Assembly: GCF_015074785.1 (NCBI RefSeq)
Contig: NZ_CP042464.1
Coordinates: 558,001 to 622,000 of the forward strand
Length of the DNA: 64,000 bases
Direction: 5' to 3'
Origin: Segatella copri
Lineage (GTDB): Bacteria > Bacteroidota > Bacteroidia > Bacteroidales > Bacteroidaceae
Every line of letters starts with the position of its first letter. Position 1 is the first letter of the stretch. Below are positions 16,951 through 34,371 of the stretch, one piece after another. Both the position numbers and the translations under genes were made by a program. Below the pieces are notes generated by a model. The model saw nothing but the letters and a program-made list of their open reading frames with translations, had not been told where the DNA came from and did no database searches.

Positions 16951-17119
16951 AATGTTGAGTGTTGAGTGTTGAATGTTGAGTGTTGAATGTTGAGTGTTGA
17001 ATGTTGAGTGTTGAATGTTGAGTGAGGCTTGCGCCCTTGAGGCCCATGTTAAGTGTCCGTTAGGCAACTCAACATTCAACATTCAACATTCAACATTATT
17101 CAATATTCAACATTCAACA
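16951..17119. repeat. Palindromic heptamer-array element, copy A (between pyrB and pyrI)
   Basis: The left arm (16951-17027) has about 11 tandem units alternating TTGAATG and TTGAGTG. The right arm (17066-17119) has complementary CATTCAA/CACTCAA-type units. The centre includes tgtccgttaggcaactc, shared with copies B and C. The last right-arm unit runs into the pyrB stop codon. On mRNA this would be a very long hairpin between two co-transcribed cistrons. Confidence 0.9.
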
Positions 17120-18067
17120 TTATTCAATTATGCTTTTATCGTTCTTCACGTCATCGAGCGAGATGCCGAGGCAGTGGCAGAAGATAGCCTCACGTGCATA
17201 GAGGCCGTTCTGAGCCTGCTGGATATAGTATGCATGTGGATCATCGTCTACATCGTAAGCAATCTCGTTAACACGTGGCAGCGGATGCATGATCTTCATG
17301 TTCTCCTTAGCCTTGCAGAGCATGTCACGCTTCAGGATATACACGTTCTTTACGCGTTCATACTCCATCAGGTCGCTGAAACGCTCCTTCTGTACACGGG
17401 TCATGTAGAGGATGTCGGCACCTGCAATCACATCTTCGTTAAAGTCCTCGTGCTCAACATATTTGATGTTGTGCTCCTTGCAGTAGAGTTTATACTCTTC
17501 TGGCATGGCGAGTTCTTTAGGTGCGATGAAATGGAAGGTAGGATTGAAGTGGCGCATGGCTGTGATAAGTGAGTGAACGGTGCGGCCATATTTGAGGTCA
17601 CCCACAAGATAGATGTTCAAGTTCTCCAGGGTTCCCTGGGTCTTGTAGATAGAGTAGAGGTCGAGCAGGCACTGTGAAGGATGCATGTGAGCGCCGTCGC
17701 CTGCATTTACGATAGGCACTGGTGCTACCTCACTGGCATACTGGGCTGCTCCCTCGATGAAATGGCGCATGGCGATTACATCGGCATAGTTGCTTACCAT
17801 CAGGATGGTATCCTTGAGGGTCTCACCCTTGGTGGTACTGGATGTCTTGGCATCAGAGAAACCAATGACACGGGCACCAAGGCGGTTGGCAGCGGTTTGG
17901 AAACTGAGTTGGGTACGAGTAGATGGCTCGAAGAAAAGGGTCGCTACGACCTTTCCCTTCAACAACTCCCTGTTCGGGTGCTTTTCGAACTCTTGCGCCA
18001 TTTCCAGGAGGTACATGATTTTCTCCTTGGAAAGGTCTGCAATGGTCACAAAATTATGTTTTTCCAT
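17120..18067 (-). CDS. pyrB: Aspartate carbamoyltransferase catalytic subunit
   Basis: 315 residues from ATG at 18067. The open frame extends 195 bp further, but that part overlaps the divergent PBP promoter and is not PyrB-like, whereas [17 protein letters not shown] matches the family start. Carbamoyl-phosphate loop STRTQLSFQ and [11 protein letters not shown] (HPxQ) are present. It makes carbamoyl-aspartate, the committed step of pyrimidine synthesis. Promoter -7 box TAACTTTG at 18108-18101. The extreme C-terminus (...SIIE) and stop are encoded by bases that blend into the repeat element. Confidence 0.96.
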
Positions 18068-18100
18068 TTGAAATTTGATTGAATGTTCTAAAATCGCCCA

Positions 18101-18108
18101 CAAAGTTA
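18101..18108 (-). promoter_or_regulatory. pyrB -7 promoter box
   Basis: Minus strand TAACTTTG (TAnnTTTG) 33 nt upstream of the chosen pyrB ATG, supporting that start over the longer frame. Confidence 0.6.
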
Positions 18109-18151
18109 CATAAAAAATCTGATTTATGTGTGATAAGTCAAAACTTTTATG

Positions 18152-18159
18152 TAATTTTG
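18152..18159 (+). promoter_or_regulatory. -7 box of the class A PBP gene
   Basis: TAATTTTG, 23 nt before the ATG at 18183; the divergent counterpart of the pyrB promoter. It lies inside the longest open frame and argues for the internal start. Confidence 0.6.
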
Positions 18160-18182
18160 CACAAATATTTAAAGAAATAGTG

Positions 18183-20513
18183 ATGAGAAAGCGATTTATA
18201 CATATTTTATGGGCTGTTTTCGGCACCGGAATACTCATGGTAATTCTTGCCTTTGTTGCCATCTGGTTTGGAATGATTGGCTACATGCCCGACATCGAGG
18301 ATCTGCAGAATCCTATCAACAGATTTGCCACCCAGGTTTACTCTGCCGATGGCAAGGTGCTTGGTACGTGGAACCTGAACAAGGAGAACCGTATCGTGAT
18401 TCCTTACAAGAAAATGTCACCTTATTTAATAAAGGCGCTGGTGGCTACTGAGGATGAGCGATTCTATGAGCATTCAGGTATCGACTTCCGTGCACTGGGA
18501 CGTGCCATCGTCAAGCGTGGTATCCTGGGACAGACTAATGCGGGTGGTGGAAGTACCATCACGCAGCAGCTCGCCAAGCAGCTTTATTCTGAGAAGGCAG
18601 GCAGTACGATGGAACGATTGTTGCAGAAGCCGATAGAGTGGGTGATTGCGGTGAAGCTGGAACGCTATTATACCAAAGAGGAGATTCTGGCTCTCTATCT
18701 CAATTACTTCGATTTCCTGCACAATGCTGTAGGAATCAAGACGGCGGCCAATACCTATTTTAATAAGGAACCGAAGAATCTGACCCTCTGTGAGTCGGCA
18801 ACGCTCATCGGACTGTGCAAGAATCCGTCGCTCTTCAATCCGGTTCGCTATCCGGAGAGAGCGAGGGAGCGCAGAAATGTGGTTCTTTCGCAGATGGTGA
18901 AGGCGGGGTATCTGAGCCGGGGCGAGTATAGCCAGTGTGCTGCTGAGCCGCTGACACTCAATTTCCACCGTACCGACCATAAGGACGGTTCGGCTACTTA
19001 TCTGCGTGAGTTCCTTCGCCAGTATATGATGGCTAAGCGTCCGGAGCGTAGTGATTATCCATCCTGGAACCGTGCCCAGTTTGTGGTGGATTCTATCCAG
19101 TGGGAGAATGATCCGCTCTATGGATGGTGCAACAAGAACTATAAGAAGGATGGTTCGCCATATAATGTATACAGTGATGGACTGAAGGTGTTTACAACTA
19201 TTGATAGCCGTATACAGCAGTATGCGGAAGAGGCTATGTATCAGCATGTAGCCCGCTATCTGCAGCCTCGCTTCAGTGCAGAGATAGCCCGCAAACCAAG
19301 CTCGCCATACAGCGATAAGCTGACACCGAAACAGATTAAGAGTATACTGAACCGCAGTATCACCCAGAGTGAGCGTTACCGTACGATGAAGGCTGCGGGA
19401 TATTCTGAGGATGAAATCAAGGCGGCATTCCGCAAAAAGCAGGAGATGACCGTATTTACCTATCATGGTGATATTGATACACTGATGAGTCCGCTCGATT
19501 CTATCCGTTATTACAAGAGTTTTCTGCGTAGCGGTTTTATGAGCATGGACCCTAAGACGGGTGCTGTGAAAGCGTATGTGGGTGGATTGGATTATACTCA
19601 TTTCATGTATGACATGGTGAGTCTGGGACGCCGGCAGGTGGGTTCTACCATCAAGCCATTCCTTTACAGTCTGGCGATGTCTAACGGCTTCCAGCCTTGT
19701 GATCTGGCGCCTAACCGTCAGCAGACCTATATGGTGGCTGGTCGTCCGTGGACACCTCGCAATGCCAACCATTCACGTGCCGGACAGATGGTACCGCTGA
19801 GTTGGGGATTGGCGCAGAGTAGCAACTGGGTGAGTGCTTATCTGATGAGTAAGCTCAATCCGCAGCAGTTCGTACAGATGTTGCGCGATTTCGGCATCAA
19901 CAGTCCTGATATCCATGCATCCATGAGTCTCTGTCTGGGACCATGTGAGGTAAGTGTCAGTGAGATGGTGAGTGCCTATACCGTATTTGCCAACCACGGC
20001 ATCCGTACTGCTCCAATGTTTGTGAGCCGTATCGAGGATAATGAAGGTAATACGATTGCTACCTTCCAGCCACGTATGAACGAGGTAATCAGTGCCGATA
20101 ATGCCATGAAGATGCTCACCATGCTGATGGGCGTTGTGGATAATGGTACGGCAGGAAGACTGCGCTACCGTTATAACCTGGAAGGACAGATTGGCGCCAA
20201 GACCGGTACTACCAATAACAACAGCGACGGTTGGTTTATCGGCTTTACTCCACAGCTCGTAAGTGGCTGCTGGGTAGGTGGTGAGGAGCGTGATATTCAC
20301 TTCGATTCCATGAGTATGGGTCAGGGTGCTACCATGGCTTTGCCTATCTGGGCGATATTCATGAAGAAGGTTTATGCCGACCCGTCGCTGGGTATCAGTC
20401 CTGCTATCAAGTTCGATTTGCCGGAAGACTACAATCCTTGTTCCCGAAAGGCAGCCGAACAGGATGACTTTGAGGAAGTAGGAGGTGGCAGCATCGACGA
20501 AGTTTTCGAATAA
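18183..20513 (+). CDS. Class A penicillin-binding protein (PBP1A-type transglycosylase/transpeptidase)
   Basis: 776 residues from ATG 18183 ([10 protein letters not shown]); the frame runs 57 bp further upstream but through the promoter. One N-terminal membrane anchor is followed by a GT51 domain with catalytic [12 protein letters not shown] and [13 protein letters not shown], then the transpeptidase domain with STIK (SxxK), SSN (SxN) and KTGT. It polymerises and cross-links peptidoglycan in the periplasm. A strong hairpin follows the stop. Confidence 0.95.
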
Positions 20514-20522
20514 AAACCAAGG

Positions 20523-20574
20523 CATTCGCCATTTTTGCATGTATTTATTTTAAATAGTGCAAAAATGGCGAATG
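20523..20574 (+). terminator. Strong stem-loop after the PBP gene
   Basis: 17-bp perfect stem cattcgccatttttgca / tgcaaaaatggcgaatg with an 18-nt AT loop, followed by TTATTTG. It lies immediately upstream of the pheT -33 box. Confidence 0.75.
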
Positions 20575-20577
20575 TTA

Positions 20578-20609
20578 TTTGTTTATATGCATTTTTTTTT
20601 GTATTTTTG
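20578..20609 (+). promoter_or_regulatory. pheT promoter
   Basis: TTTG (20578-20581), 20-nt spacer, TATTTTTG (20602-20609): a full match to the Bacteroidetes housekeeping promoter. The leader to the pheT ATG is about 70 nt. Confidence 0.75.
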
Positions 20610-20687
20610 CAGAGTTTTAGAACATGCATAGCCCGAATGATGTTTCTTCGGGTTTTCAAAATAGAAATAAAATAAAAAATCATTATA

Positions 20688-23156
20688 ATGAACGTTTCAT
20701 ACAAATGGCTTAAAGAATACGTCGATTTCGATTTGACACCACAGGAGACTGCGGACGCGTTGACCTCTTGCGGACTCGAAGTTGACGCTTTGGAAGAAGT
20801 TCAGTCTGTCAAGGGCGGACTGAAAGGTCTCTATGTTGGTAAAGTGTTGACATGCGAGGAGCATCCTAATAGTGATCACCTCCATGTTACAACCGTTGAC
20901 TTGGGTAAGGGCGAACCTCAGCAGATTGTCTGTGGTGCTCCTAACGTTGCTGCAGGTCAGAAGGTTATCGTGGCTGATTTGGGCTGCGTGCTTTACGATG
21001 GCGACCAGAGTTTTACCATCAAGAAGAGCAAACTCCGCGGTGTAGAGAGTTTGGGTATGATCTGTGCTGAGGATGAGATTGGTGTAGGTACCTCTCACGA
21101 CGGCATCATCGTACTCCCTGAAGATGCTCCGGTAGGTCAGCCTGCTGCTGAATATTACCATCTGGAGAGCGACTGGCTCATCGAGATTGATATCACAGCC
21201 AACCGTGCTGATGCGCTCGGTCATTGGGGTGTAGCCCGCGACCTGTATGCCTGGTTGAAGCAAAATGGCTACAAGACAAGCTTGCATCGCCCAACTTGCG
21301 ATGAGTTTGTGGTAGACAACGAAGATCTTCCTATCGATGTTGAAATCCAAAATACTGAGGCTTGCAAGCGTTATGCCTGTGTAAGCATCACCGGTTGTGA
21401 GGTGAAGGAAAGTCCTAAGTGGTTGCAGGATAAGCTGAACATCATCGGCTTGCGCCCTATCAACAATATCGTGGATATCACCAACTACATCATGATGGCA
21501 TACGGCCAGCCATTGCACTGCTTCGATGCAGACATGGTTACCGGTCATAAGATTGTAGTTCGTACCCAGCCAGAGGGCACCAAGTTTGTTACTCTCGATG
21601 GCGAGGAGCATACCTTGGGTGAGCACGACCTGAGCATCTGCAATGCTGAGGAGCCTATGTGTATCGCCGGTATCTTCGGCGGTAAGGGTTCTGGTACTTA
21701 CGAGACAACCAAGGATGTAGTCTTGGAGAGTGCTTACTTCCATCCTACATGGATTCGCAAGAGCGCTCGCCGTCATGGTTTGAGTACAGATGCCAGCTAC
21801 CGTTTCGAGCGTGGCGTAGATCCAAACGGACAGATTTATGCTTTGAAGCAGGCAGCCATCCTCTGCAAGCAGTTGGCTGGCGGTAAGATTTCCATGCAGA
21901 TCAAGGATGTATATCCAGAGCCAATGCAGGATTTCCCTGTTCGCCTGAACTATGAGTATGCGCATCGCCTTATCGGTAAGGAGATTGGTGCAGAGACCAT
22001 CAAGAACATTGCTACATCTCTCGAAATGAAGATTGTGAAGGAGGATGCTGAGGGTATCGACCTCCTGGTTCCTGCTTATCGCGTAGACGTTCAGCGTCCT
22101 TGCGACGTGGTAGAGGATATTCTCCGTATCTACGGATATAATAATGTGGAGATTCCAACCCAGTTGAAGAGCTCCCTGACTGTTCAGGGCGATGAGGATA
22201 AGGCTTATCACAGCCAGAACCTCGTGGCAGAGCAGTTGGTAGGCGAGGGCTTCATGGAGATTCTCAACAACTCTATGAGCAAGGCTAGCTACTATACCGA
22301 CTTCGACCTCAACAAGTATCCTAACGAGACAACCGTGAAGGTGATGAACCCATTGAGTGCTGATCTCGGTGTGATGCGCCAGACGATGCTGTTCGGTGGT
22401 TTGGAGAGCGTGGTTCGCAACATCAACCATAAGAGCCAGAACCTGAAGTTCTTCGAGGTGGGTAACACCTATATATACAATAAGGAGAAGTGGAGCGAGG
22501 AGAGTCCTATCAAGGCTTACTCTCAGGAGGCTCACATGTCACTCTTCATCACCGGTAAGCGCGTAGAGGGCAGTTGGGCTCATGCTGATGAGCAGAGCAG
22601 CATCTACGAGCTGAAGGCTGTGGTAGAGAATATCCTTCGCCGTGTAGGTATGCCACAGAACAACGTGGTTATCAAGCACAGCGACAATAACATCTTCTCT
22701 AAGGGTGTAAGTTACGAGACCCGTGCCGGTAAGGTATTGGTAGAACTGGGTATCCTGAGCCTGAAGCTGAAGAAGGCATTCGATATAGAGCAGGATGTGT
22801 TCTATGCTGATATCCACTGGGATAACCTGATGAAGGCAGTGAAGAAGGTGAACCTTACTTACACCGACATCAGCAAGTATCCTTCAGTGAGCCGCGACCT
22901 TGCATTGCTCGTAGACAAGAATGTAGAGTTCGCTCAGATTGAGCAGATTGCCCACCAGACAGAGAAGAAACTTCTGAAGAGCGTTGTTCTCTTCGATGTT
23001 TATGAGGGTGAGCATTTGCCAGAGGGCAAGAAGAGTTATGCCGTTAACTTCATCCTGCAGGATGAGGAGAAGACTCTGAATGACAAGCAGATAGATGCTA
23101 TCATGAAGAAGCTCATAGCCAACCTTACAAGCAAGCTCAATGCAGAATTGAGATAA
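20688..23156 (+). CDS. pheT: Phenylalanine-tRNA ligase beta subunit
   Basis: 822 residues, normal length. In order: the tRNA-binding EMAP-like domain (about 40-150, VGKVLTCEEHPNSDHLHV), B3/B4 editing domain (about 210-380), B5 (about 400-475), core, and the C-terminal FDX-ACB anticodon-binding domain (about 725-820). It acts with PheS, encoded elsewhere, to charge tRNA-Phe. The last 23 bp of the gene are imperfectly repeated just after the stop. Confidence 0.97.
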   Translation: MNVSYKWLKEYVDFDLTPQETADALTSCGLEVDALEEVQSVKGGLKGLYVGKVLTCEEHPNSDHLHVTTVDLGKGEPQQIVCGAPNVAAGQKVIVADLGCVLYDGDQSFTIKKSKLRGVESLGMICAEDEIGVGTSHDGIIVLPEDAPVGQPAAEYYHLESDWLIEIDITANRADALGHWGVARDLYAWLKQNGYKTSLHRPTCDEFVVDNEDLPIDVEIQNTEACKRYACVSITGCEVKESPKWLQDKLNIIGLRPINNIVDITNYIMMAYGQPLHCFDADMVTGHKIVVRTQPEGTKFVTLDGEEHTLGEHDLSICNAEEPMCIAGIFGGKGSGTYETTKDVVLESAYFHPTWIRKSARRHGLSTDASYRFERGVDPNGQIYALKQAAILCKQLAGGKISMQIKDVYPEPMQDFPVRLNYEYAHRLIGKEIGAETIKNIATSLEMKIVKEDAEGIDLLVPAYRVDVQRPCDVVEDILRIYGYNNVEIPTQLKSSLTVQGDEDKAYHSQNLVAEQLVGEGFMEILNNSMSKASYYTDFDLNKYPNETTVKVMNPLSADLGVMRQTMLFGGLESVVRNINHKSQNLKFFEVGNTYIYNKEKWSEESPIKAYSQEAHMSLFITGKRVEGSWAHADEQSSIYELKAVVENILRRVGMPQNNVVIKHSDNNIFSKGVSYETRAGKVLVELGILSLKLKKAFDIEQDVFYADIHWDNLMKAVKKVNLTYTDISKYPSVSRDLALLVDKNVEFAQIEQIAHQTEKKLLKSVVLFDVYEGEHLPEGKKSYAVNFILQDEEKTLNDKQIDAIMKKLIANLTSKLNAELR

Positions 23157-23227
23157 TGCAGAAGGGGCTCAGTGCAGAATTAAGATAATATTATAAACAA
23201 ACGATAAACATTTAAAATTTTATTCCA

Positions 23228-23971
23228 ATGGGAAGAGCATTTGAATATCGTAAAGCTACAAAGCTGAAAAGATGGGGCCACATGGCCAAGACATTTACTA
23301 AGTTGGGTAAGCAGATTGCTATTGCTGTGAAGGCAGGCGGTCCAGAACCAGAGAACAACCCATCATTGCGTGCTATCATCGCTAACTGTAAGCGTGAGAA
23401 CATGCCTAAGGATAACATCGCTCGTGCCATCAAGAACGCTTGTGGCAAGGATACCAGCGATTACAAGGAAGTAACATACGAGGGATATGGCCCTCACGGA
23501 GTGGCTGTCTTCGTTGATACTCTGACAGACAACACTACACGTACTGTTGCTGACGTTCGTTCTATCTTCAACAAGTTCAGCGGAAACTTGGGTACAACAG
23601 GTTCTCTGTCTTTCCTCTTCGACCACAAGGCTGTGTTCACATTCAAGAAGAAGGAAGGTCTGGATATGGATGAGATGATTCTCGACCTGATCGACTACGG
23701 CGTAGAAGATGAGTTTGATGAGGATGAGGAGAACAACGAAATCACTATCTATGGTGCTCCTACAAGCTTCGGCGAAATTCAGAAGCACCTGGAGGCTGAG
23801 GGTTTCGAGGTAACTGGTGCTGAGTTCACTTACATCCCTAACGATTTGAAGGATGTAACTCCTGAGGAGCGCGAAACTATCGACAAGATGGTTGAGAAGT
23901 TGGAAGAGTTTGACGATGTTCAGACTGTATATACCAACATGAAGCCAGAAATTCCTGCAGACGCAGAATAA
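23228..23971 (+). CDS. YebC/PmpR family protein
   Basis: 247 residues. MGRAFEYRKATKLKRWGHMAKTF is a Bacteroidetes variant of the usual 'GHSKW' YebC N-terminus, followed by DNTTRTVADVR and the acidic C-terminal domains. The family includes transcriptional regulators and, by recent reports, factors that relieve ribosome stalling; which role applies is not evident. It lies 71 bp after pheT and is probably co-transcribed with pheT and the TSCPD gene. Confidence 0.92.
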   Translation: MGRAFEYRKATKLKRWGHMAKTFTKLGKQIAIAVKAGGPEPENNPSLRAIIANCKRENMPKDNIARAIKNACGKDTSDYKEVTYEGYGPHGVAVFVDTLTDNTTRTVADVRSIFNKFSGNLGTTGSLSFLFDHKAVFTFKKKEGLDMDEMILDLIDYGVEDEFDEDEENNEITIYGAPTSFGEIQKHLEAEGFEVTGAEFTYIPNDLKDVTPEERETIDKMVEKLEEFDDVQTVYTNMKPEIPADAE

Positions 23972-23976
23972 GCATT

Positions 23977-24255
23977 ATGTTGCAGCAAGACAAACAGGAT
24001 AAGTTGCAGAAGGTAACTTATCAGACTCATGGCACCTGCTCAAAATACATCTGCATCAGTATAGATGAAGATGGAAATGTGCAGGATGCCCAGTTCATCG
24101 GAGGCTGCGATGGCAATACCAAGGGCGTTTGTGCTTTGATTAAAGGCATGAAGGCAAAGGAGGTCATCGCCCGACTGAAGGGTATCACTTGTGGCAATAA
24201 GCCTACAAGCTGTCCAGACCAGTTGGCGACAGCTTTGCAGGAAATGGGATATTAA
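23977..24255 (+). CDS. TSCPD-domain protein (TIGR03905-like)
   Basis: 92 residues. The C-terminal motif TSCPDQL gives the TSCPD domain its name; CSKYI and GGCDGN near the N-terminus carry the other conserved cysteines. The domain also occurs at the end of ribonucleotide reductases; the stand-alone form has no assigned function. It starts 5 bp after the YebC-like gene, so it is in the same operon. Confidence 0.85.
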   Translation: MLQQDKQDKLQKVTYQTHGTCSKYICISIDEDGNVQDAQFIGGCDGNTKGVCALIKGMKAKEVIARLKGITCGNKPTSCPDQLATALQEMGY

Positions 24256-24266
24256 TAGTATTAGAA

Positions 24267-24306
24267 AAGGCACGGATTACTAGCTAGTAATCCGTGCCTT
24301 TTTTAC
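24267..24306 (+). terminator. Rho-independent terminator of the pheT operon
   Basis: Perfect 16-bp stem aaggcacggattacta/tagtaatccgtgcctt and a T run. Followed by a second partial copy (actagtactccgtgtctttt) facing the convergent lipoprotein gene. Confidence 0.9.
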
Positions 24307-24327
24307 TACTAGTACTCCGTGTCTTTT

Positions 24328-24714
24328 CTAATACTTGAAGATATCATCCAGCAACACCTCCTTCGGGTTCTTAGCCGAATGATATATGAAACGGAAGGTG
24401 AAATGCTCTTCCTTATATTTCTTCAGACCAGGGTTGTTGTCCAGGGCTTCCTTCTGAATCTTATGGAGTTTACCCTTGTTGGCATCAATCGCCTTCTTGT
24501 TATCTGCCTTGTTTCTCAAAGAGATATAGTACGTATACATCTTCTTGGTTTTATCAAATGCAGCACTGTCAGTCCTGGCATCGTTGACGTATGGAGTAGG
24601 ACAGTATTTTTCAGTATATTCCTTGGCTTCACGAGCCGCTTTGTCCTCCAGACTTTCTGTACAAGAAACGAGCAAAGAAGCAAAAATACCGATGTAAATC
24701 AACTTTTTCTTCAT
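24328..24714 (-). CDS. Small lipoprotein of unknown function
   Basis: 128 residues with a lipoprotein signal (LLVSC at about 14-18) and a charged, helical mature part rich in Lys and Glu. No recognised domain. A -7 box (TATCTTTG, 24772-24765) stands 51 nt before its ATG, divergent from lepA. Confidence 0.6.
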   Translation of the reverse strand: MKKKLIYIGIFASLLVSCTESLEDKAAREAKEYTEKYCPTPYVNDARTDSAAFDKTKKMYTYYISLRNKADNKKAIDANKGKLHKIQKEALDNNPGLKKYKEEHFTFRFIYHSAKNPKEVLLDDIFKY

Positions 24715-24815: not shown

Positions 24816-26609
24816 ATGGAGAATATAAATAAAATAAGAAATTTCTGCATTATTGCACATATAGACCATGGTAAAAGTACCTTGGCAGACCGACTTCTGG
24901 AGAAGACTCAGACCATCAAGATTACTGAAGGACAGATGCTTGATGATATGGATTTGGAAAGAGAACGTGGTATCACGATCAAGAGTCACGCTATCCAAAT
25001 GGAATATAAGGCAAAGGATGGACAGACCTATATCCTGAATCTTATTGATACTCCGGGACACGTTGACTTCTCATACGAAGTTTCCCGTTCCATCGCTGCT
25101 TGCGAGGGAGCACTGCTGGTTGTTGACGCTACTCAAGGCGTTCAGGCACAGACCATTTCAAACCTCTATATGGCTATCGAGCACGACCTGGAGATTATTC
25201 CGGTAATCAATAAGATAGATATGCCTTCAGCTATGCCTGATGAGGTAGAAGACGAAATTGTAGATCTGATCGGTTGTAAGCATGAGGATATTCTCCGTGC
25301 TTCAGGTAAGACCGGTGAGGGTGTAGAAGATATACTGGAAGCTGTTGTTAATCGTGTTCCTGCTCCGGTAGGAAACGAGAAGGCACCGCTTCAGGCTTTG
25401 ATTTTCGACTCTGTATTCAACTCTTTCCGCGGCATCATCGCCTATTTCAAGATAGAGAATGGCGTGATCCGTAAGGGAGATAAGGTGAAGTTCTTCAATA
25501 CCGGCATGGAATATGATGCAGATGAAATCGGTGTATTGAAGATGGATATGATTCCACGCCAGGAATTGGGTACCGGTGAGGTAGGTTATATCATCTCGGG
25601 CATCAAGAATGCTACCGAGGTAAAGGTGGGTGATACCATTACTCATATCGCCCGTCCTTGCGACAAGGCGATTGCAGGTTTCCAGGAAGTGAAACCTATG
25701 GTCTTCGCCGGTGTTTATCCTATCGATCCTAGCGATTACGAGAATCTGCGTGCATCGCTTGAAAAACTGCAGCTCAATGATGCTTCATTGACTTTCTCGC
25801 CAGAGAGTTCTGTGGCTTTGGGCTTCGGTTTCCGATGCGGATTCCTCGGTTTGCTCCACATGGAAATCGTACAGGAGAGACTGGACCGTGAGTTTAATAT
25901 GGATGTCATCACTACCGTACCTAACGTATCTTATATGGTATACGACAAGCAGGGCGGTGAGAAAGAGGTTCACAATCCTTCCGGATTGCCAGACCCAACT
26001 CTGATTGATCATATTGAGGAACCATATATCCGGGCAACCATCATTACGGCTACCAATTATATTGGACCAATCATGAAACTCTGTCTGGATAAACGAGGCG
26101 AACTCATCAACCAGGAATATGTGAGTGGAAACCGTGTAGAGCTCCACTTCATGTTGCCATTGGGAGAAATCGTCATCGACTTCTATGACAAGCTGAAGAG
26201 TATCTCCAAGGGATATGCTTCGTTCGACTATCATATCGATTCATTCCGTCATTCCGACCTGGTGAAGCTCGATATCCTGTTGAATGGAGAGCCTGTAGAT
26301 GCTTTGAGTACTTTGACTCACCGCGATAACTCTGTGAGCTTCGGCCGCAGAATGTGCGAGAAGTTGAAGGACCTCATACCTCGTCAGCAGTTCGATATTG
26401 CTATCCAGGCAGCTATCGGTGCCAAGATTGTGGCACGTGAGACTGTTAAGCAGGTGCGCAAGGATGTTACCGCCAAATGTTATGGTGGTGACGTAAGCCG
26501 TAAGCGCAAGTTGCTGGAGAAGCAGAAGAAGGGTAAGAAACGCATGAAGCAGATTGGTAATGTGGAAGTTCCACAGAAAGCCTTCCTTGCTGTGCTCAAA
26601 CTCGATTAA
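24816..26609 (+). CDS. lepA: Elongation factor 4 (LepA) translational GTPase
   Basis: 597 residues from ATG 24816 ([22 protein letters not shown]). The frame extends 54 bp upstream through the -7 box, so the internal start is preferred. G1 [10 protein letters not shown]3 DTPGHVDF and G4 NKID are intact, and the LepA-specific C-terminal domain ([10 protein letters not shown] near the end) is present. Membrane/ribosome-associated GTPase that remodels elongating or initiating ribosomes. Confidence 0.97.
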
Positions 26610-26649
26610 TGATTTAATATAAGTATAATGGAAAAGGAGGTTAAGTATT

Positions 26650-27249
26650 ATGGCAGACTTTAAAGTAATTACCCCTAAGCGTGATATTGCGCGCGAATTG
26701 GCGCGTAAATATAGTACGATGACTCATGATGAGCTCGATGTGGTGGAAGATATCCTTGAGCCTATCAAGTATGGCAAGGGCGAGCTGATCTTGCCTGAAG
26801 GTGAACAGTGCATGGGTATCTCGTACATCGAGAAGGGATTGGTACGCCAATTTTACTTTAAGAATGGCAAGGAGGTGACCGAGCATCTGGGTGTGGATCA
26901 TACCATCTTTATGTGCATTGAGAGCCTCTTTAAGGAAGAGCCTACCCACCTGCAGGTGGAAGCTTTGGAGCCTACGCTGGTGTATATGCTACCGAAGAAG
27001 AAGCTGGAGGCGGCTGCTATGCGTAATGTCAATATCCAGATGCTTTATCGTAAAATACTGGAAGAGAGTTTGATTCAGTCTCAGATTCATGCCGATCTGA
27101 TGCGATTTGAGTCGGCACCTAATAAATATAAGCGCCTGTGCGAAATGAACCCACAGGTGGTTCTGCGTGCTCCGCTCACCTATATCGCAAGCTATCTGCA
27201 GATGACTCCGGAAACGCTGTCCAGAATCCGATCAAATACATTATTATAA
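26650..27249 (+). CDS. Crp/Fnr-type transcriptional regulator
   Basis: 199 residues with an N-terminal cyclic-nucleotide-binding-like beta barrel (about 30-120, KGELILPEGEQCMGISYIEKGLVR) and a C-terminal winged helix (YIASYLQMTPETLSRIRS). The canonical cAMP phosphate-binding RxS motif is not evident, so the ligand is unknown. Bacteroidetes have many such regulators. It lies 40 bp after lepA and may be read through from it. Confidence 0.85.
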   Translation: MADFKVITPKRDIARELARKYSTMTHDELDVVEDILEPIKYGKGELILPEGEQCMGISYIEKGLVRQFYFKNGKEVTEHLGVDHTIFMCIESLFKEEPTHLQVEALEPTLVYMLPKKKLEAAAMRNVNIQMLYRKILEESLIQSQIHADLMRFESAPNKYKRLCEMNPQVVLRAPLTYIASYLQMTPETLSRIRSNTLL

Positions 27250-27260
27250 TCATAAAGTAA

Positions 27261-27297
27261 AAAAGAGGATGTGACTTGTGACACACCCTCTTTTTTG
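27261..27297 (+). terminator. Terminator after the Crp-like gene
   Basis: Stem aaaagagg...cctctttt with an inner gtg/cac pair and a T run. The stem sequence (gtgtga/gacacaccctc) is closely related to the terminator at 35061-35091. Confidence 0.8.
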
Positions 27298-27325
27298 TTG
27301 TTTCATATCATAGACCAGCAAGCCT

Positions 27326-28990
27326 TTACTCTGCCGTATAGAGGAATCGCTTGATGCTCTTCTTAGGAGTCTTTTCAAACTCATCTTCATGTATACGTAT
27401 TTCTGATACTTTGCTGTAAGCAGGAATCATGGTGTTGAGCTCCTGACGGTTCTGCTCCATGACATCTGTCAGTTCTTTGGTACCGAGGTTCAAGGTCTGA
27501 GCTTCATCATAGTCTGGGTGAACCAGAGCAATGAGCTTGTCGCCCTTCTGTACAACCACGCTTTCCGCTACCAGAGCCAAAGAGTTGAGTTTATCCTCAA
27601 TCTCCTCAGGGTAGATATTCTGACCGTTTGCGCCGAGCAGCATGTTCTTGCTACGACCCTTGATGAAGACGTTGCCGTCACCATCCATGGTACCGAGGTC
27701 GCCTGTATGATACCATCCGTTCTCGTCGATGGTCTGCTTGGTAGCTTCCTCATTCTTATAGTAACCCAACATTACGTTAGGACCCTTGGCAAGGATTTCG
27801 CCTGGTACATTCTCTGGATCAGGACTGTCGATGCGGACCATCATGTGGAGGGCAGCCTTACCGCAAGAGCCCGGTACGAAGTTTTTGTAATCCTCGTAGC
27901 AGATGATAGGGGCACATTCTGTTGCGCCATATCCTACGGTATATTTGAAACCTACGCTATGGAGGAAACTTTCCACTTCCTGGTTAAAGGCTGCACCACC
28001 GATAATCACCTCGTAGAAGTTGCCACCGAAGGCATTGGATACCTGGTCGCATATCTTCTCCTTCACCTTCTTGCTGATTACAGGCATGTGGAGCAGCATA
28101 CGCATGCGGTTGTTCTGGATCTTAGGGAATACCTTCTTGCGGATAATCTTCTCGATAACCAGAGGTACAGCTATGATGACAGCTGGCTTGATGCGGCCGA
28201 ATGCCTCGGCGATGATGGCTGGACTAGGGATGCGGGTGAGATAGAAGACGTGGCAGCCCTTGATGAATTCGAAGATAAATTCAAACGCCATGCCGTACAT
28301 GTGGGCCATCGGCAGGATACTGATGACAGAATCTCCTGGCTTAATCTTCTTACCCAGTACGTTCTCTGCAAAATCTGCATTGCCCCAGAGTGCACGGTAT
28401 GGAACCATTACTCCCTTGGAGAAACCGGTTGTGCCGCTGGTATAGTTGATCATAGCCAACTCATCCGGATTCTGTTCCATATAGTAGTTGACATGGTTTT
28501 TGCGGAAGTACTTAGGATACTTGATACCGAACATCTCGTTGAGGTGTTCGCGGGCATAAGTCAACTTGTCGGTACGTGAAACGACAAGTGAATAATCCGG
28601 TATATAGATGATGCCTTCAAGACCTGGCATCTTCGTTGCATCAATCTGTGTTGCTACAACATCACCCACGAAGAGCAGTTTGGCATCGCTGTGGTTTACG
28701 ATGTTGTGAATCTGGTCTGGCATGAATTCATGCAGGATAGGTACGGCAATGGCACCATAGGTAAGGGTAGCAAGGAATGCTACAGCCCAGTTTGCGCTAT
28801 TTCGACCGCAAAGTGCTATCTTGTCTCCCTTTACTACACCAGAGTTCTCAAACATGATGTGTAGCTTCTCAATTTTGCGTGCTACATCATGGTACTGCAA
28901 GGTTGCTCCCTTGTAGTCTGTCAAAGCATCCATATCCCAATGGTCTACGATGCTCTTTTGGATTAATGCGTTAAAGCTTGGAATCTCCAT
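27326..28990 (-). CDS. AMP-binding acyl-CoA synthetase (paralog 1)
   Basis: 554 residues. The P-loop YTSGTTGFSKGV (about 188-199), YGATECAPI (acyl-adenylate site) and TGDLG with the C-terminal GRSKNM/KTPKKSIKR catalytic lysine region are all present. It activates fatty or other acids with ATP and CoA. It is a tandem paralog of 29099-30766 and the two likely share substrates or differ in chain length. The ATG at 28990 is at the junction to a short leader. Confidence 0.9.
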   Translation of the reverse strand: MEIPSFNALIQKSIVDHWDMDALTDYKGATLQYHDVARKIEKLHIMFENSGVVKGDKIALCGRNSANWAVAFLATLTYGAIAVPILHEFMPDQIHNIVNHSDAKLLFVGDVVATQIDATKMPGLEGIIYIPDYSLVVSRTDKLTYAREHLNEMFGIKYPKYFRKNHVNYYMEQNPDELAMINYTSGTTGFSKGVMVPYRALWGNADFAENVLGKKIKPGDSVISILPMAHMYGMAFEFIFEFIKGCHVFYLTRIPSPAIIAEAFGRIKPAVIIAVPLVIEKIIRKKVFPKIQNNRMRMLLHMPVISKKVKEKICDQVSNAFGGNFYEVIIGGAAFNQEVESFLHSVGFKYTVGYGATECAPIICYEDYKNFVPGSCGKAALHMMVRIDSPDPENVPGEILAKGPNVMLGYYKNEEATKQTIDENGWYHTGDLGTMDGDGNVFIKGRSKNMLLGANGQNIYPEEIEDKLNSLALVAESVVVQKGDKLIALVHPDYDEAQTLNLGTKELTDVMEQNRQELNTMIPAYSKVSEIRIHEDEFEKTPKKSIKRFLYTAE

Positions 28991-29098
28991 ATTCTTGTTA
29001 TTTAACGATTTGCTTTTTTATATTTTTCTCGTACTGAAGTCAGTTTGCTGATGATAGACCTTATCTGCTGATGATCTGTCAGCAGATAGGGCCTGTCT

Positions 29099-30766
29099 CT
29101 AGATTGCGTTCTGATAGAGGTAACGCTTGATAGACTTCTTGGCTGTCTTTTCAAATTCCTGATTATGAAGTTTGATGCGTGATACCTTTGCGAAGCTAGG
29201 TATCTGCAAGTTCAGTTCCTTGCGGTTCTGCTCCATGATGTTCTCCAGGTCTTCGTCTGTAAAGCCGAGGTTGTTAACTTCTTCCATATCCGGATGAACC
29301 AGAGCAACCAGCTTGTCATCGCTCTGTATTACGATGCTCTCGTTGACCATAGCCATGGAGTTGAGCTTGTCCTCAATCTCTTCCGGATAGATGTTCTGTC
29401 CGTTAGGTCCCAGCAGCATGTTCTTGCTTCTTCCTCTTACGAAGAAATGTCCGTCGGCGTCCATCGTTGCCAGGTCGCCTGTATGGAACCATCCGTCTTT
29501 ATCTATTACGGCATCTGTTGCCTCCTGGTTCTTGTAATAGCCCTTCATCACGTTGATGCCGCGGCAAACCAGTTCACCGGCTACGTTCTCCGGGTCATCG
29601 CTCAGTACCTTCACCTCCATGTGCTTCACGGCAACACCACAGCTTCCTGCCACATAGTTGTCCTGATGGGCAAAGGTAATAAGTGGAGCAGTCTCAGTGG
29701 TACCATATCCCATGGCAATAGGGAAACCTACGCTGATGAAGAAGTTCTCTATCTCCTTGTTGAGCGGAGCACCACCCACAACAACCTCGCAAGGACGTTC
29801 GCCAAACTTTTTCAATACAAACTCGCGAACCTTCTCCTTGATGCGCTTATTGATGACAGGCATGTTCATCAGCAGTCGTGCACGGTTGGTTTGGATATGT
29901 GGGAATACTTCCTTTCTTACAATCTTGTCTACTACAAGCGGCACCGCATAGAGGATGTCTGGCTTGATTTCTGACAACGCCTCTGAGATGAGCGTTGGGC
30001 TCGGCAGACGGGTAAGGAAGAAGATATGGTTACCCAATACTATATTGAAGAGAAATTCTGTCATGAGTCCATACATGTGAGCCATCGGAAGGGTAGAAAG
30101 GATGTTGCAGTTCTTACCTATGTTAGGCTTCACTGAATCGATGAGGTAGTCGAGATTACCCCAAAGTGCTCTGTATGGGAGCATCACACCTTTTGAGAAA
30201 CCGGTAGTTCCACTGGTATAGTTGATCATTGCCAGTTCTTCAGGATCGTCTACGTGATACTTCACGTGTTCTGGTCTGAAATACTTAGGATATCTGTGTC
30301 CGAACATTGCATTGAGGTTCTCGCGCGCATAAGTCAGTTTCTCAGAGCGCGAGATGACAAGCGAATTGTCCGGAAGATAGATGATTCCTTCCAGCGAAGG
30401 CATCTCTTCTGGTGTTATCTCTGTAGCTACCACGTCACCAACGAACAGAAGTTTGCTTTCGCTGTGGTTCACGATGTTGTGAATCTGCTCAGGCTTAAAT
30501 TCGTTCTGTATAGGTACGACAATGGCTCCGTAAGTAATAATGGCCAGGAAGGCTACTGCCCACTGGCTACTATTTCTTCCGCAGACGGCAATCTTGTCGC
30601 CCTTCTTTACATCGCTGTTTTCGAACAGGATGTGTAGCTTCTCAATCTTTCTGGCAATATCGTGATATTGGAGGGTTGTGCCCTTGTAATCGGTGAGCGC
30701 ATCCAGATTCCAATTCTTGATAATGCTGTTCTCAATATACGAGTTAAAACTTGGTATTGAATTCAT
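29099..30766 (-). CDS. AMP-binding acyl-CoA synthetase (paralog 2)
   Basis: 555 residues from ATG 30766 (MNSIPSFNSYIENSI). The frame extends 48 bp further, but a -7 box (TATCTTTG, 30797-30790) lies in that extension. Motifs YTSGTTGFSKGV, YGTTETAPL and TGDLATMD match its neighbour almost throughout, showing tandem duplication. It would be transcribed first, with paralog 1 108 bp downstream. Confidence 0.9.
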   Translation of the reverse strand: MNSIPSFNSYIENSIIKNWNLDALTDYKGTTLQYHDIARKIEKLHILFENSDVKKGDKIAVCGRNSSQWAVAFLAIITYGAIVVPIQNEFKPEQIHNIVNHSESKLLFVGDVVATEITPEEMPSLEGIIYLPDNSLVISRSEKLTYARENLNAMFGHRYPKYFRPEHVKYHVDDPEELAMINYTSGTTGFSKGVMLPYRALWGNLDYLIDSVKPNIGKNCNILSTLPMAHMYGLMTEFLFNIVLGNHIFFLTRLPSPTLISEALSEIKPDILYAVPLVVDKIVRKEVFPHIQTNRARLLMNMPVINKRIKEKVREFVLKKFGERPCEVVVGGAPLNKEIENFFISVGFPIAMGYGTTETAPLITFAHQDNYVAGSCGVAVKHMEVKVLSDDPENVAGELVCRGINVMKGYYKNQEATDAVIDKDGWFHTGDLATMDADGHFFVRGRSKNMLLGPNGQNIYPEEIEDKLNSMAMVNESIVIQSDDKLVALVHPDMEEVNNLGFTDEDLENIMEQNRKELNLQIPSFAKVSRIKLHNQEFEKTAKKSIKRYLYQNAI

Positions 30767-30789
30767 TGCACAATTTACAAAATTTTGTG

Positions 30790-30797
30790 CAAAGATA
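30790..30797 (-). promoter_or_regulatory. -7 box for the acyl-CoA synthetase pair
   Basis: Minus strand TATCTTTG, 23 nt before ATG 30766; it rules out the longer open frame. Confidence 0.6.
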
Positions 30798-30908
30798 ATG
30801 AAAATAGTGCACACTGCAAAATAAAATGTGCACTATTTTCAAAAACTATATAAAATAATTAGTTTTTTTCCTTTTTAGTCTACATATTGTGGTGTTATAG
30901 ACTGTATT

Positions 30909-32156
30909 TTACTCATATCTCATTGATTTGGCTGGATGGATATGAGAAATCAAGTAGCTTGGTGCTACGAGCATGAAGATGCTTATCAGCAGCGTAGCAA
31001 TGTTCAGTGCTATGATGGCAAGCCAGTTGAATTCTACCGGAACGGTACTTACATAATAGGTCTGTGCATCGAGTTTGATGATGCCTGTAAAGTACTGGAG
31101 GGTAAGAATGCCGAGGGCGATGATGTTGCCCAGAAGCATACCCTTGCCGATGATGAAGACGGCAAACCACAGGAAGGTGTGGCGGATGGTCTTGTTGCGG
31201 GCACCCAATGCCTTCATTACGCCTATCATGGAGGTGCGTTCCAGAATGATGATGAGCAGACCGCTGATCATGGTGACGCCGGCTACTATCAGCATCAGAC
31301 CGAGAATAATCCAGACGTTCAGATCCATCAGGCTCAGCCATTGGAAGATGTTTGGATTCAGGTCCTTGATGGTAGAACTGCTGTAGGTTTCTCCATAGTG
31401 ATCTACCGTGCGGTTCACCTTATTAATAATATAATCTTCAGTCTCGTTGAGCTTGTTGAAGTCGTTTACTGTCAGTTCTGCACCGCTCGCCTGGTCTTCT
31501 TCCCATCCGTTCAGCTTCACGGCAGTATAGAGGTCGGTGTATACCATTACCTCATCATACTTCTTCAGGTTGGTCTGATAGATACCCTTGATGGTGAAGC
31601 GGCGCATACGCACTCCGTTGCCATCAAAGAAGTAGGCAAAGATGCGTTCTCCCGTCTTCAGCTTCAGCTTATCAGCCATCAGCTGTGAGATGAGAATCTG
31701 GTTATGACTCGCTTTGTCATCAAACTTAGGGATGCTGCCCTCGATCATGTTCTGATGGATAAAGGTAGAATCGAAATCAGGTCCTACACCTTTGAACATG
31801 ACGCCCAGGAAATCGCTGTCCGTCTTCAGGATTCCCTCTTTCATGGCAAATTTCTGCACATGTTTTACGCCAGGTATCTTTTTCAGTACGTTGACCATCG
31901 AGTCGTTCATGACCACCGGATACTGGTTTTGCTGCTGCAGCGTCATGAAGTCGGCCACCTGTATATGGCTACCGAATCCTATTACCTTGTCGCGTATGGT
32001 ATGCTTGAATCCGAGCACTACGCATACCGACATAATCATAATGGCGAGTCCGATAGCAACACCTGCAGTGGCTATATGAATAGCAGGGCGAGAAACTTTA
32101 CGTTTATCGCCCTGATCGCTATATAATCTCTTTGCTATAAATAGAGGAAAATTCAT
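30909..32156 (-). CDS. LolC/LolE-type lipoprotein-releasing ABC permease
   Basis: 415 residues starting at ATG 32156 (MNFPLFIAKRLYS). The open frame runs 37 codons farther, but those codons are the translated heptamer repeat (NIQHST-like units) and are not protein. An N-terminal transmembrane helix, a large periplasmic MacB-like domain (about 55-270) and three C-terminal helices with an FtsX signature (MKALGARNKTIRHTF) give the LolC/E topology. It should work with an ATPase encoded elsewhere to release lipoproteins from the inner membrane. Element copy B abuts its start. Confidence 0.85.
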   Translation of the reverse strand: MNFPLFIAKRLYSDQGDKRKVSRPAIHIATAGVAIGLAIMIMSVCVVLGFKHTIRDKVIGFGSHIQVADFMTLQQQNQYPVVMNDSMVNVLKKIPGVKHVQKFAMKEGILKTDSDFLGVMFKGVGPDFDSTFIHQNMIEGSIPKFDDKASHNQILISQLMADKLKLKTGERIFAYFFDGNGVRMRRFTIKGIYQTNLKKYDEVMVYTDLYTAVKLNGWEEDQASGAELTVNDFNKLNETEDYIINKVNRTVDHYGETYSSSTIKDLNPNIFQWLSLMDLNVWIILGLMLIVAGVTMISGLLIIILERTSMIGVMKALGARNKTIRHTFLWFAVFIIGKGMLLGNIIALGILTLQYFTGIIKLDAQTYYVSTVPVEFNWLAIIALNIATLLISIFMLVAPSYLISHIHPAKSMRYE

Positions 32157-32163
32157 CTTTTGT

Positions 32164-32290
32164 AATGTTGAATGTTGAGTGTTGAGTGTTGAATGTTGAA
32201 TGTTGAATGTTGAATGTTGAATGTTGATAGTTAATTTAATCTTTGTGTCCGTTAGGCAACTCAACATTCAACACTCAACATTCAACATTG
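32164..32290. repeat. Palindromic heptamer-array element, copy B
   Basis: The left arm (about 32164-32227) has TTGAATG/TTGAGTG units; the right arm (32261-32290) is complementary. The centre has ctttgtgtccgttaggcaac. It fills the gap between the aminotransferase stop (32291) and the permease start (32156) completely. Confidence 0.9.
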
Positions 32291-33502
32291 TTATAGTCCT
32301 TCGTCTTCCACTCTTCCCGGATAAGCCTCAAGTGCCTTACCCAGAACCACCAGAGCACGCTCCAGATCGTGTTTCTTCAAGACGTAAGCTACACGAACCT
32401 GATTGTGACCGGCTCCAGGAGTCGTATAGAAACCAGAGGCTGGAGCCATCATGATGGTTTCGCCCTCATAGTTGAATTCCTCCAGACACCAGCGGCAGAA
32501 CTTTTCAGAATCATCGATAGGCAGTTTGGCTACGGTGTAGAAGGCTCCCATAGGAATAGGAGAGTATACGCCCGGAATGCGGTTCAAACCGTCTATCAGG
32601 CACTTACGGCGCTCTACATACTCATCGTATACATCGCGGTAGTACTCTTCAGGAGCATCCAGAGAAGCTTCGGCTACAATCTGACCAATCAGTGGAGGAG
32701 AGAGACGGGCCTGGCAGAACTTCATCACCGCCTTGCGGATTTCTGCATTCTTGGTGATGAGGGCACCTACACGGATACCGCACTCACTGTAACGCTTCGA
32801 AACAGAATCGATGAGAACCGTGTTCTGCTCGATGCCTTCCAGGTGCATCGCACTGATATAAGGACTGCCGGTATAGATATACTCACGGTAAACCTCATCA
32901 GAGAAGAGATAGAGGTCGTACTTCTTCACCAGGTCACGAATCTGATTCATCTCTCTGCGGGTATAGAGATAGCCCGTAGGGTTGTTAGGGTTGCAGATCA
33001 GAATGGCACGGGTGCGCTCATTAATCAGCTCCTCAAACTTCTCCACCTTAGGCAGGGAGAAACCTTCTTCTATCGTTGTGGCGATGGTACGGATCTTGGC
33101 ACCCGCAGAGATGGCAAACGCCATATAGTTAGCGTAAGCAGGTTCTGGTACGATAATCTCGTCGCCTGGGTTGAGGCAGCTCATGAAAGAGAAGAGTACA
33201 GCCTCAGAACCTCCCGATGTAATGATGATATCATCGGCAGTTACGTTGATGTTGAATTTCTTATAGTAATCTACAAGCTTCTCGCGATAGCTGAGATAGC
33301 CCTGACTTGGAGAATACTCCAAGACCGTGCGGTCTATATGCTTCAGGGCATCTAGGCCACATTGAGGAGTTGGAAGGTCAGGCTGACCGATGTTGAGGTG
33401 ATATACCTTTACTCCACGTTTTTTTGCTGCGGCAGCCAGAGGAGCCAATTTTCTGATAGGTGACTCTGGCATTTCAAGACCGCGTACAGATATTTCTGGC
33501 AT
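32291..33502 (-). CDS. PLP-dependent class I aminotransferase (aspartate aminotransferase type)
   Basis: 403 residues from ATG 33502 (MPEISVRGLEMPESPIRK); the frame runs 24 codons farther but without family resemblance. PLP lysine lies in DSVSKRYSECGIRVG (about residue 238) and the cofactor loops SGGSEAV and NPNNPTG are present. It probably transfers amino groups between aspartate, glutamate or aromatic amino acids and 2-oxo acids. A -7 box (TATCTTTG, 33599-33592) stands about 90 nt upstream. Confidence 0.9.
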   Translation of the reverse strand: MPEISVRGLEMPESPIRKLAPLAAAAKKRGVKVYHLNIGQPDLPTPQCGLDALKHIDRTVLEYSPSQGYLSYREKLVDYYKKFNINVTADDIIITSGGSEAVLFSFMSCLNPGDEIIVPEPAYANYMAFAISAGAKIRTIATTIEEGFSLPKVEKFEELINERTRAILICNPNNPTGYLYTRREMNQIRDLVKKYDLYLFSDEVYREYIYTGSPYISAMHLEGIEQNTVLIDSVSKRYSECGIRVGALITKNAEIRKAVMKFCQARLSPPLIGQIVAEASLDAPEEYYRDVYDEYVERRKCLIDGLNRIPGVYSPIPMGAFYTVAKLPIDDSEKFCRWCLEEFNYEGETIMMAPASGFYTTPGAGHNQVRVAYVLKKHDLERALVVLGKALEAYPGRVEDEGL

Positions 33503-33591
33503 CTTAAAATATTGTTTCTTTCTATTAATTATCCGTGTCGAAAATTGAATTCTATGACCTTCTGGTCTTTTCAATTTACGCTAATCGGCTG

Positions 33592-33599
33592 CAAAGATA
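33592..33599 (-). promoter_or_regulatory. -7 box of the aminotransferase-permease transcript
   Basis: Minus strand TATCTTTG about 90 nt before the aminotransferase ATG. Confidence 0.5.
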
Positions 33600-33764
33600 A
33601 GAAAATTAGATGAGAATTGAGAATAACTTTCGGTTAAATTTTATTTTTTGATTAAAAACTCTTTAAATATGTCGCTCTTTGCTTTCTTTTTTATAACTTT
33701 GCACTTAATTTCAAGAAATGTTATAAGATTATACGAATTAATTAAAATAAGTAAGAAGAAAATT

Positions 33765-34262
33765 ATGAGAAGTAGAACAAGTACATGGTTTGAGACCAAA
33801 GTGAAATATCAGAAGACAATGGAGGATGGTTCAGAAAAGGTTGTTTCTGAAGCATACGTAGTAGATGCTTTGAGCTTTACCGAGGCTGAGAGCGCTATCA
33901 TCGATGAGATGTCGGTTTATGTAAGCGGCGAGTTGAAGGTGAGCGGTATCGGCAAGGCTGGCTACGGCGAAATCTTCTTCAGCGATGTGGATGATGATGA
34001 TAAGTGGTATAAGGCTAAACTCCAGTTCATCACGATTGATGAGAAGAGTGAGAAGGAGAAGCGCAGCAATGTTACTTATCTTGTTCAGGCTAAGTCTCTC
34101 GCCCGTGCCCTCCGGTATATTGATGAGGTGATGGGCAAGACCATGATAGATTATGATGTGGTTGGTTTGAACGAAACCAAACTGATGGATGTATTCGAGC
34201 ATCATGCTCCTAACGAGAAGAAAGAGGAGAAGAATGATGTGCCTGAATACGAGGAGAAATAA
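33765..34262 (+). CDS. DUF4494 family protein
   Basis: 165 residues from ATG 33765 (MRSRTSTWFETKVKYQK). The frame extends 39 codons upstream into AT-rich sequence that reads as a hydrophobic artefact. It is a compact alpha/beta protein of a Bacteroidetes-only family without known function. It lies before the yggS-like gene with only element copy C between them. Confidence 0.8.
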   Translation: MRSRTSTWFETKVKYQKTMEDGSEKVVSEAYVVDALSFTEAESAIIDEMSVYVSGELKVSGIGKAGYGEIFFSDVDDDDKWYKAKLQFITIDEKSEKEKRSNVTYLVQAKSLARALRYIDEVMGKTMIDYDVVGLNETKLMDVFEHHAPNEKKEEKNDVPEYEEK

Positions 34263-34266
34263 ATTA

Positions 34267-34371
34267 ATGTTGAGTGTTGAATGTTGAATGTTGAGTTGCC
34301 TAACGGGACACAAAGGTTAATTCAACACTCAACATTCAACACTCAACATTCAACATTCAACATTCAACATT
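34267..34371. repeat. Palindromic heptamer-array element, copy C (inverted relative to B)
   Basis: The left arm is short (34267-34294); the right arm (34322-34371) has seven complementary units. The core agttgcctaacgggacacaaa is the reverse complement of the core in copy B with one extra base. It begins 5 bp after the DUF4494 stop and ends 7 bp before the yggS ATG. Confidence 0.9.

Follow-up and report, generated by a model that had tools for sequence, protein, structure and literature searches.

Gap-filling inverted heptamer arrays in the window

The DNA analysed, referred to here as the window, is a stretch of 64,000 nucleotides (nt) from Segatella copri (contig NZ_CP042464.1, positions 558,001 to 622,000), and it contains three elements in which opposed arrays of a 7-nt unit occupy the space between two codirectional genes. 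The elements are located at about 16951-17121, 32164-32289 and 34266-34371. Each consists of opposed heptamer arrays around a core of about 25-45 nt and fills the gap between the upstream gene's stop codon and the start codon of the next gene. When read in the direction of the genes, all three show the same order, which is stop codon, (TTGAATG/TTGAGTG)n, TTGCCTAACGG..., (YTCAACA)m, a leader of 6-13 nt and ATG, and the TTGAATG arm is the post-stop arm in every case. A search with a two-unit pattern allowing one mismatch returned 32 matches in the window, all of them within the three elements, against 0.08 expected from shuffled sequences. The gap-filling opposed arrays proposed earlier from the sequence were confirmed. 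The gene pairs named in that original prediction, pyrB-pyrI, aminotransferase-permease and DUF4494-yggS, agreed with the Pfam matches. No Rfam family matched the window at the gathering score.

Element 1 lies on the minus strand between pyrB (17120..18262, PF02729/PF00185; the limits are those of the longest open reading frame (ORF) in the ORF list, and the conserved part runs from about 18067) and pyrI (16473..16937, PF01948/PF02748; start codon at 16935-16937). Its stop-side arm (17068..17119), which reads (TTGAATG)n in gene direction, directly abuts the pyrB stop codon TAA at 17120-17122. The core (17025..17067) adjoins this arm with TTGCCTAACGG and the start-side arm with GGGCGCAAGCC, and the start-side arm (16951..17024), which in gene direction has the form (YTCAACA)n, leaves 13 nt to the pyrI ATG. 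Element 2, also on the minus strand, follows a class I/II aminotransferase gene (32291..33502, PF00155; its start is uncertain and the longest ORF extends to 33574) and precedes a gene for an FtsX/MacB-type permease (30909..32156, PF02687/PF12704). It is composed of a stop-side arm (32261..32289) 1 nt after the stop codon, a core (32228..32260) and a start-side arm (32164..32227) 7 nt before the permease ATG. On the plus strand, element 3 connects the gene for a DUF4494 protein (33765..34262, PF14902) with a YggS-like gene (Ala_racemase_N; 34378..35052, PF01168). Its stop-side arm (34266..34296) begins 3 nt after the stop codon, the core spans 34297..34319, and the start-side arm (34320..34371) ends 6 nt before the ATG; the distance between arm and downstream ATG had been given earlier as 7-13 nt. 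The common core was exact in copies 1 and 2, whereas copy 3, on the opposite strand, carries one extra G (three mismatches in an ungapped search). Relative to the genes, the core has the same orientation in all three elements despite the differing strands of the window, a point that, like the constant post-stop place of the TTGAATG arm, is absent from the original prediction.

Placement, polarity and arm matching in a close relative

The distribution of such arrays was examined in G001, the nearest genome compared, which is a single contig of 3.33 Mb and 99% complete; its last 22.5 kb were left out. The PyrB of the window is identical to that of G001 over 315 residues, and the coding flanks of the elements are about 97% identical. 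Genes were called by an in-house ORF/hexamer finder, which overlooks short genes and sets some starts wrongly, and the array thresholds were of our own choice. With arms of at least 20 nt required, we found 14 palindromes of the TTGAATG family in G001, which were located in 13 codirectional gaps and one convergent gap, and none in a divergent gap. The original prediction had held that copies lying mainly between convergent or divergent genes would speak against it, and it came through this comparison because 13 of the 14 are codirectional and none is divergent; the placement it described as hard to explain by chance is non-random in G001 as well. The outer ends of these palindromes were 0-16 nt from stops; towards starts, 9 of 13 lay 9-17 nt away and the remaining four 23-56 nt, some of the latter possibly reflecting start miscalls.

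A second family, the TAGTKWW arrays, gave 99 matches in G001 with one mismatch allowed. Among the loci fetched from G001, 18 palindromes of this family were distributed as 12 codirectional, 4 convergent, 0 divergent and 2 unclassified; these loci were chosen partly for closely spaced opposed matches, and the fraction of palindromes among them is not a rate. Divergent gaps are avoided, as none of the 30 classified palindromes (14 of the TTGAATG and 16 of the TAGT family) is in a divergent gap, while such gaps make up 67 of 554 gaps and 23% of the intergenic bases (about 0.02 and about 0.0004, respectively, by our own arithmetic). In a survey of G001 blind to the unit, hairpins with tandem arms, of at least four unit families, occupied 7 codirectional and 4 convergent gaps and no divergent one, and plain hairpins occupied 21 codirectional gaps, 21 convergent gaps and 1 divergent gap.

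The arrays are also polar: TTGAATG arrays come after stops and the reverse complement comes before starts. Among arrays standing singly, 22 of 24 in G001, 7 of 8 in G020 and 8 of 11 in G143 had their gene boundary on the expected side; these counts leave out the arrays with boundaries on both sides or neither (18/42, 15/23 and 8/19, respectively). Fifteen of the 42 single G001 arrays face starts, with a start on the outer side only. Stop codons in stop-side arrays were more frequent in the sense than in the antisense direction in 17 arrays, less frequent in 4 and equal in 5 (p 0.007); start-side arrays showed no stop-codon enrichment, with 2 more, 8 fewer and 4 equal (p 0.11), a trend in the opposite direction. 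The same polarity was seen in single arrays of the TAGT family (16 on the expected side versus 1), and the near-stop arm held the stop codon itself in 20 of 40 cases, the sense array often beginning with it. The variable base of the TAGT unit was T in 76% of start-side versus 35% of stop-side arrays, a difference that 0 of 20000 permutations of the labels reached. We infer that each side of this family may have had its own shaping influence, such as stop codons after the upstream gene and an A-rich leader before the downstream one.

In the TTGAATG family, the two arms of a palindrome are matched in type. In the 14 palindromes of G001, either arm's unit type predicted that of its partner (r 0.958; 0 of 20000 permutations), and arms were pure in 20 of 28 cases as compared to 12 of 40 single arrays (p 0.0012). 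At the site of element 2, every unit in both arms is GTTGA/TCAAC in the window and GTTAA/TTAAC in G001. Pairing energy gave a weaker signal than unit type: when the window copies were added to those of G001, 28 of 20000 permutations reached the pairing energy of arms from the same locus. These matched arms are compatible with homogenisation between the two arms, with exchange among loci and with selection for pairing. The predicted RNA folds were far more stable than those of shuffled sequences (z -2.6 to -10.0). Arm-to-arm pairing was predicted for 16 of 17 elements and amounted to 15-31 stacked pairs in the copies of the window.

Turnover and distribution of the arrays

Between the window and G001, 13 of 32 orthologous gaps differ by at least 6 nt. 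The pyrB-pyrI gap is a 182-nt palindrome in the window and a 32-nt TAGTTWA array in G001, and the DUF4494-yggS gap measures 115 nt in the window versus 15 nt in G001, where the short form corresponds to 1.7 start-side units. These spacers therefore turn over fast, since a close relative has different repeats or none in the same gaps. A third allele of element 1 occurs in record MT837471.1, in which the stop-side arm is 24 nt shorter than in the window, the start-side units are equal in number and different in order, and the core differs by one base. The variable copy number of the arms that had been claimed was thus borne out by the differences among the window, G001 and MT837471.1 alleles. 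MT837471.1 (L364) is one of two records labelled 'Bacteriophage sp.' that match the element 2 sequence, and it is likely bacterial DNA because it carries the pyrB/pyrI ends together with the element 1 allele.

In other species, the pyrB-pyrI gap has a median of 22 nt over 80 loci, and 35 of the 80 gaps are at most 15 nt long. Ten of the 80 hold an array, with a lag of 7 in six, 8 in three and 9 in one; one pass over these gaps skipped minus-strand loci (17/30 of L200-L229). The element 2 site has long gaps with other repeat units in S. copri iA622, G143, G020 and G009, and a gap of at most 22 nt in 8 of 13 other genomes, these lengths being approximate as the permease start was projected. Gaps resembling the palindromes and made of other units were recognised by eye at the element 2 site of G143 and G009 and in the pyrB-pyrI gap of L114. 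The polarity of single arrays, the second heptamer family of like layout and the arrays of other units in the same gaps elsewhere go beyond what had been described in the original prediction.

Exact three-unit matches numbered 105 in G001, and the reversed control gave none there. At least one such match was present in 42 of 299 genomes of the genus; S. copri iA622, whose PyrB is 91% identical to that of the window, had 7 at 5 places, and S. copri Indica (96% over the aligned part) had 1. These numbers indicate that the amplification of the TTGAATG family is recent and lineage-specific. The reversed control pattern (ACAAYTY arrays) was abundant in some members of the genus, for example G169 and G173, and its matches in these and other genomes suggest another heptamer family. 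Intergenic short tandem repeats had a period of 7 or 14 in 20 of 32 cases from the 80 Prevotellaceae loci and in 17 of 46 cases from 800 kb of G001. Arrays of period 7 were present in coding DNA once in the 80 loci and not in the 800 kb of G001, which contain 11 intergenic ones. Intergenic DNA sampled from 20 further families of the order, 45.6 kb in total, yielded no period-7 array and one period-14 array.

Families with a 9-nt unit also form inverted arrays similar to the heptamer ones. Convergent terminator-like palindromes are located at 24256-24327 and 35053-35104 of the window, where G001 has long inverted arms of 9-nt CACGGATTA; in one such gap the window has one 9-nt unit per arm versus three per arm in G001. 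The 34-nt gap between genes for a SPOUT methyltransferase and a UvrA-like protein (58918-58951) is an 8-nt array of the GGTAAAAA type and corresponds to 122 nt in G001, and a 311-nt gap (59423-59733) with a large palindromic insertion corresponds to 79 nt there. Elsewhere in the window, the region of about 40746-51359 is almost unmatched in the 80 kb of G001 compared, except for one 82-nt piece (49411-49492), and it is probably an accessory region because it carries RhuM-like and two YhcG-type nuclease genes and has almost no match in G001. It includes an ORF (43816-46752) that matches DUF285 and contains tandem repeats of 78 nt (45397-45804).

Interpretation and comparison with known systems

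With somewhat less than even confidence, we favour the reading that the elements of the window are dispersed, fast-turnover intercistronic inverted tandem arrays, which would be transcribed as hairpins affecting the processing or decay of mRNA and the translation of the downstream gene. An array of a stop-codon-bearing unit (TTGAATG, TTAAATG, TAGTTTA or TAGTTAA) stands at or directly after the upstream stop and its reverse complement directly before the next start, so that the arms could pair with the base of the hairpin between stop and start. Such arrays may nucleate at the stop-codon end and grow by 7-nt slippage, and a palindrome may arise when an array is copied back on itself by template switching (fold-back) or when sequence is exchanged with a second array locus. 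If the genes are co-transcribed as an operon, the hairpin would set the distance from stop to start and could alter how the mRNA is processed or decays and how the downstream cistron is translated. An effect on mRNA processing or downstream translation is probable, and an RNA device at these gaps, one of the two possibilities raised in the original prediction, is possible in view of the modelled folds.

Several results weigh against this reading. The polarity was not significant in G020 (p 0.07) or G143 (p 0.23) taken alone, and in G001 alone the pairing energy of arms from the same locus was mildly better than permuted (697 of 20000), with one G001 palindrome showing no arm-arm pairing in its minimum-energy fold. 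Matched arms could reflect common descent of A- and G-type copies; common descent alone is insufficient, however, because it explains the correlation in G001 and not the change in both arms at element 2. In the TAGT family, the arms at one locus paired no better, and rather worse, than permuted ones (19526 of 20000 as low or lower). Because these arms are not paired beyond chance and their sides differ in composition, base pairing is not the common rule, and it was ruled out as a universal one. Furthermore, the unit-blind survey of the 80 loci from other Prevotellaceae returned no tandem-armed hairpin; the palindromes, unlike the single arrays, are therefore not established as widespread, and a general family-wide class of palindromes was unsupported.

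The strongest rival is that the arrays are a neutral by-product, in which slippage and template switching would occur everywhere and their products survive only where coding and promoter sequences are spared, that is in 3' and intercistronic gaps. We consider this a serious contender ranked only slightly below the favoured reading, partly because the TAGT family gives no pairing signal. The fast turnover of orthologous gaps, units that vary between species and between gaps, the confinement of period-7 arrays to intergenic DNA in G001, the absence of selection for pairing in TAGT-family arms and the occurrence of arrays at phage gene junctions would all be expected from it. Side-specific polarity and composition and the unit purity of arms are not obvious products of slippage, although some of the polarity could follow if arrays nucleate at stop codons. 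As to phages, viral contigs do hold heptamer arrays (8 stretches), and those at L358 781-808 and L361 11009-11078 were observed at gene junctions beside portal and tail-completion/neck genes. A phage or plasmid origin was discarded, as the core is absent from the viral contigs and element 3 has no plasmid match.

A miniature mobile element resembling miniature inverted-repeat transposable elements (MITEs) or repetitive extragenic palindromic (REP) sequences, with the heptamer arms as its ends and a transposase acting in trans, would account for the lineage-specific amplification and for an element 3 site that is occupied in the window and nearly empty in G001. The core TTGCCTRACGG recurs in all three window and 5 of 14 G001 copies; counting both orientations, it is present in 6 of the 14 G001 palindromes, one of them reversed, and 8 lack it. 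At pyrB-pyrI one array is replaced by another, which is not a clean insertion, and no target duplication was seen, by eye only, in the comparison of empty and occupied element 3 sites. Y1_Tnp, the one transposase family searched, was found twice in G001, once in G143 and not in G020 (58 array hits; genome 91% complete), and neither a heptamer array nor the core stood beside the three Y1 loci of G001 and G143. We therefore consider a mobile origin improbable; the ordinary mobile element suggested earlier gained no support from a core this inconstant, without Y1 association or duplication, and one linked to a REP-associated tyrosine transposase (RAYT) was set aside. Transcription terminators or attenuators between operon genes are a very unlikely explanation, though Rho-dependent effects may play a part. 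The 9-nt CACGGATTA arms do lengthen the stems of inverted repeats that resemble terminators and have a T run, in convergent gaps, but the stems of the window elements are AT-rich and in none of the three does a U run come after the hairpin when read with the genes (TTTAAAAAAAAAGAG, TTACAAAAG and TTTAGAAT), so they are not intrinsic terminators. Inverted tandem repeats are prone to assembly error; an artefact is hardly credible here, as the single-contig G001 has a palindrome at the element 2 site and MT837471.1 independently carries an element 1 allele.

A further possibility, which we regard as doubtful, is that the arrays form a self-renewing operon spacer system of exchangeable intercistronic cassettes in the Segatella copri group. 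Unrelated unit families would share one grammar (stop, sense array, core, complementary array, start), both arms would be swapped or homogenised together, and closely related lineages could re-tune the coupling of stop to start, for example in pyrBI, with promoters and coding sequence untouched. If the arrays alter the ratio of downstream to upstream product, the products of core operons, for example the catalytic and regulatory chains of aspartate carbamoyltransferase, would be made in different proportions by close gut strains. Such spacer alleles escape notice in short-read assemblies and in comparisons centred on genes. Shine-Dalgarno pairing is considered to be little used in Bacteroidota, and the sequence just before the start codon is therefore worth testing. 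The natural allelic series at one gap, with no array, a single array or palindromes of varied length, provides ready-made experiments, and element 2, where both arms changed jointly, could serve to study how tandem palindromes lengthen and become homogeneous.

REP sequences, the bacterial interspersed mosaic elements (BIMEs) and REPINs are dispersed extragenic palindromes of 3' and intercistronic gaps that are linked to RAYTs and have no tandem heptamer arms. The absence of the 30 classified palindromes from divergent gaps resembles REP/BIME, whereas no RAYT link was found here. NEMIS/Correia elements of Neisseria are co-transcribed mobile hairpins with a conserved core, which RNase III may cleave and which affect neighbouring genes; the elements described here would share the long transcribed duplex, as predicted by folding, and differ in that their core is not conserved. 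The BrickBuilt MITE of Porphyromonas gingivalis, also from Bacteroidales, is similar in being intergenic and in combining tandem repeats with inverted-repeat ends, but its repeats are of 23 nt, it lies 49-591 nt from genes and has promoter activity, and it does not form gap-filling heptamer palindromes (PMC4596501).

Arrays of TAACTGA are known from Beggiatoaceae, Cyanobacteria and five Bacteroidetes, and other heptamer arrays occur in some Bacteroidetes gaps (PMC4679880). They share with the present ones a stop-codon-containing heptamer, and in BOGUAY they are mostly directly upstream of starts, a position also taken by single arrays of G001, and a translational role was suggested for them; however, they are nearly all direct (169 direct sets and one indirect), the units of the window and G001 differ from theirs, and a term search of that paper found no mention of Prevotella (PMC4679880). 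A non-exhaustive literature search found no description of such arrays in Prevotella or Segatella. Along with TAACTGA, the closest described case is that of the GGGAATC arrays of Xanthomonas, which are heptameric, intergenic, dispersed, variable in length, near the end of the upstream ORF, and located mostly in codirectional and rarely in divergent gaps, as are those found here (13/1/0 and 12/4/0 codirectional, convergent and divergent, with 2 of 18 unclassified in the latter), and of their sites 70 of 186 (Xcc) and 75 of 183 (Xac) hold opposed pairs (PMC4692102). Their unit, GGGAATC or (GGGANTN)n, is G-rich and quadruplex-prone, unlike YTYAACA and TAGTKWW, and the section on them does not describe an exact stop-to-start span, side polarity, type-matched arms or several unit families per genome (PMC4692102). 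Three features of the elements described here are, in our view, new: they span exactly from stop to start, two unit families of a single genome follow a side-specific polarity, and the two arms change in a coordinated way.

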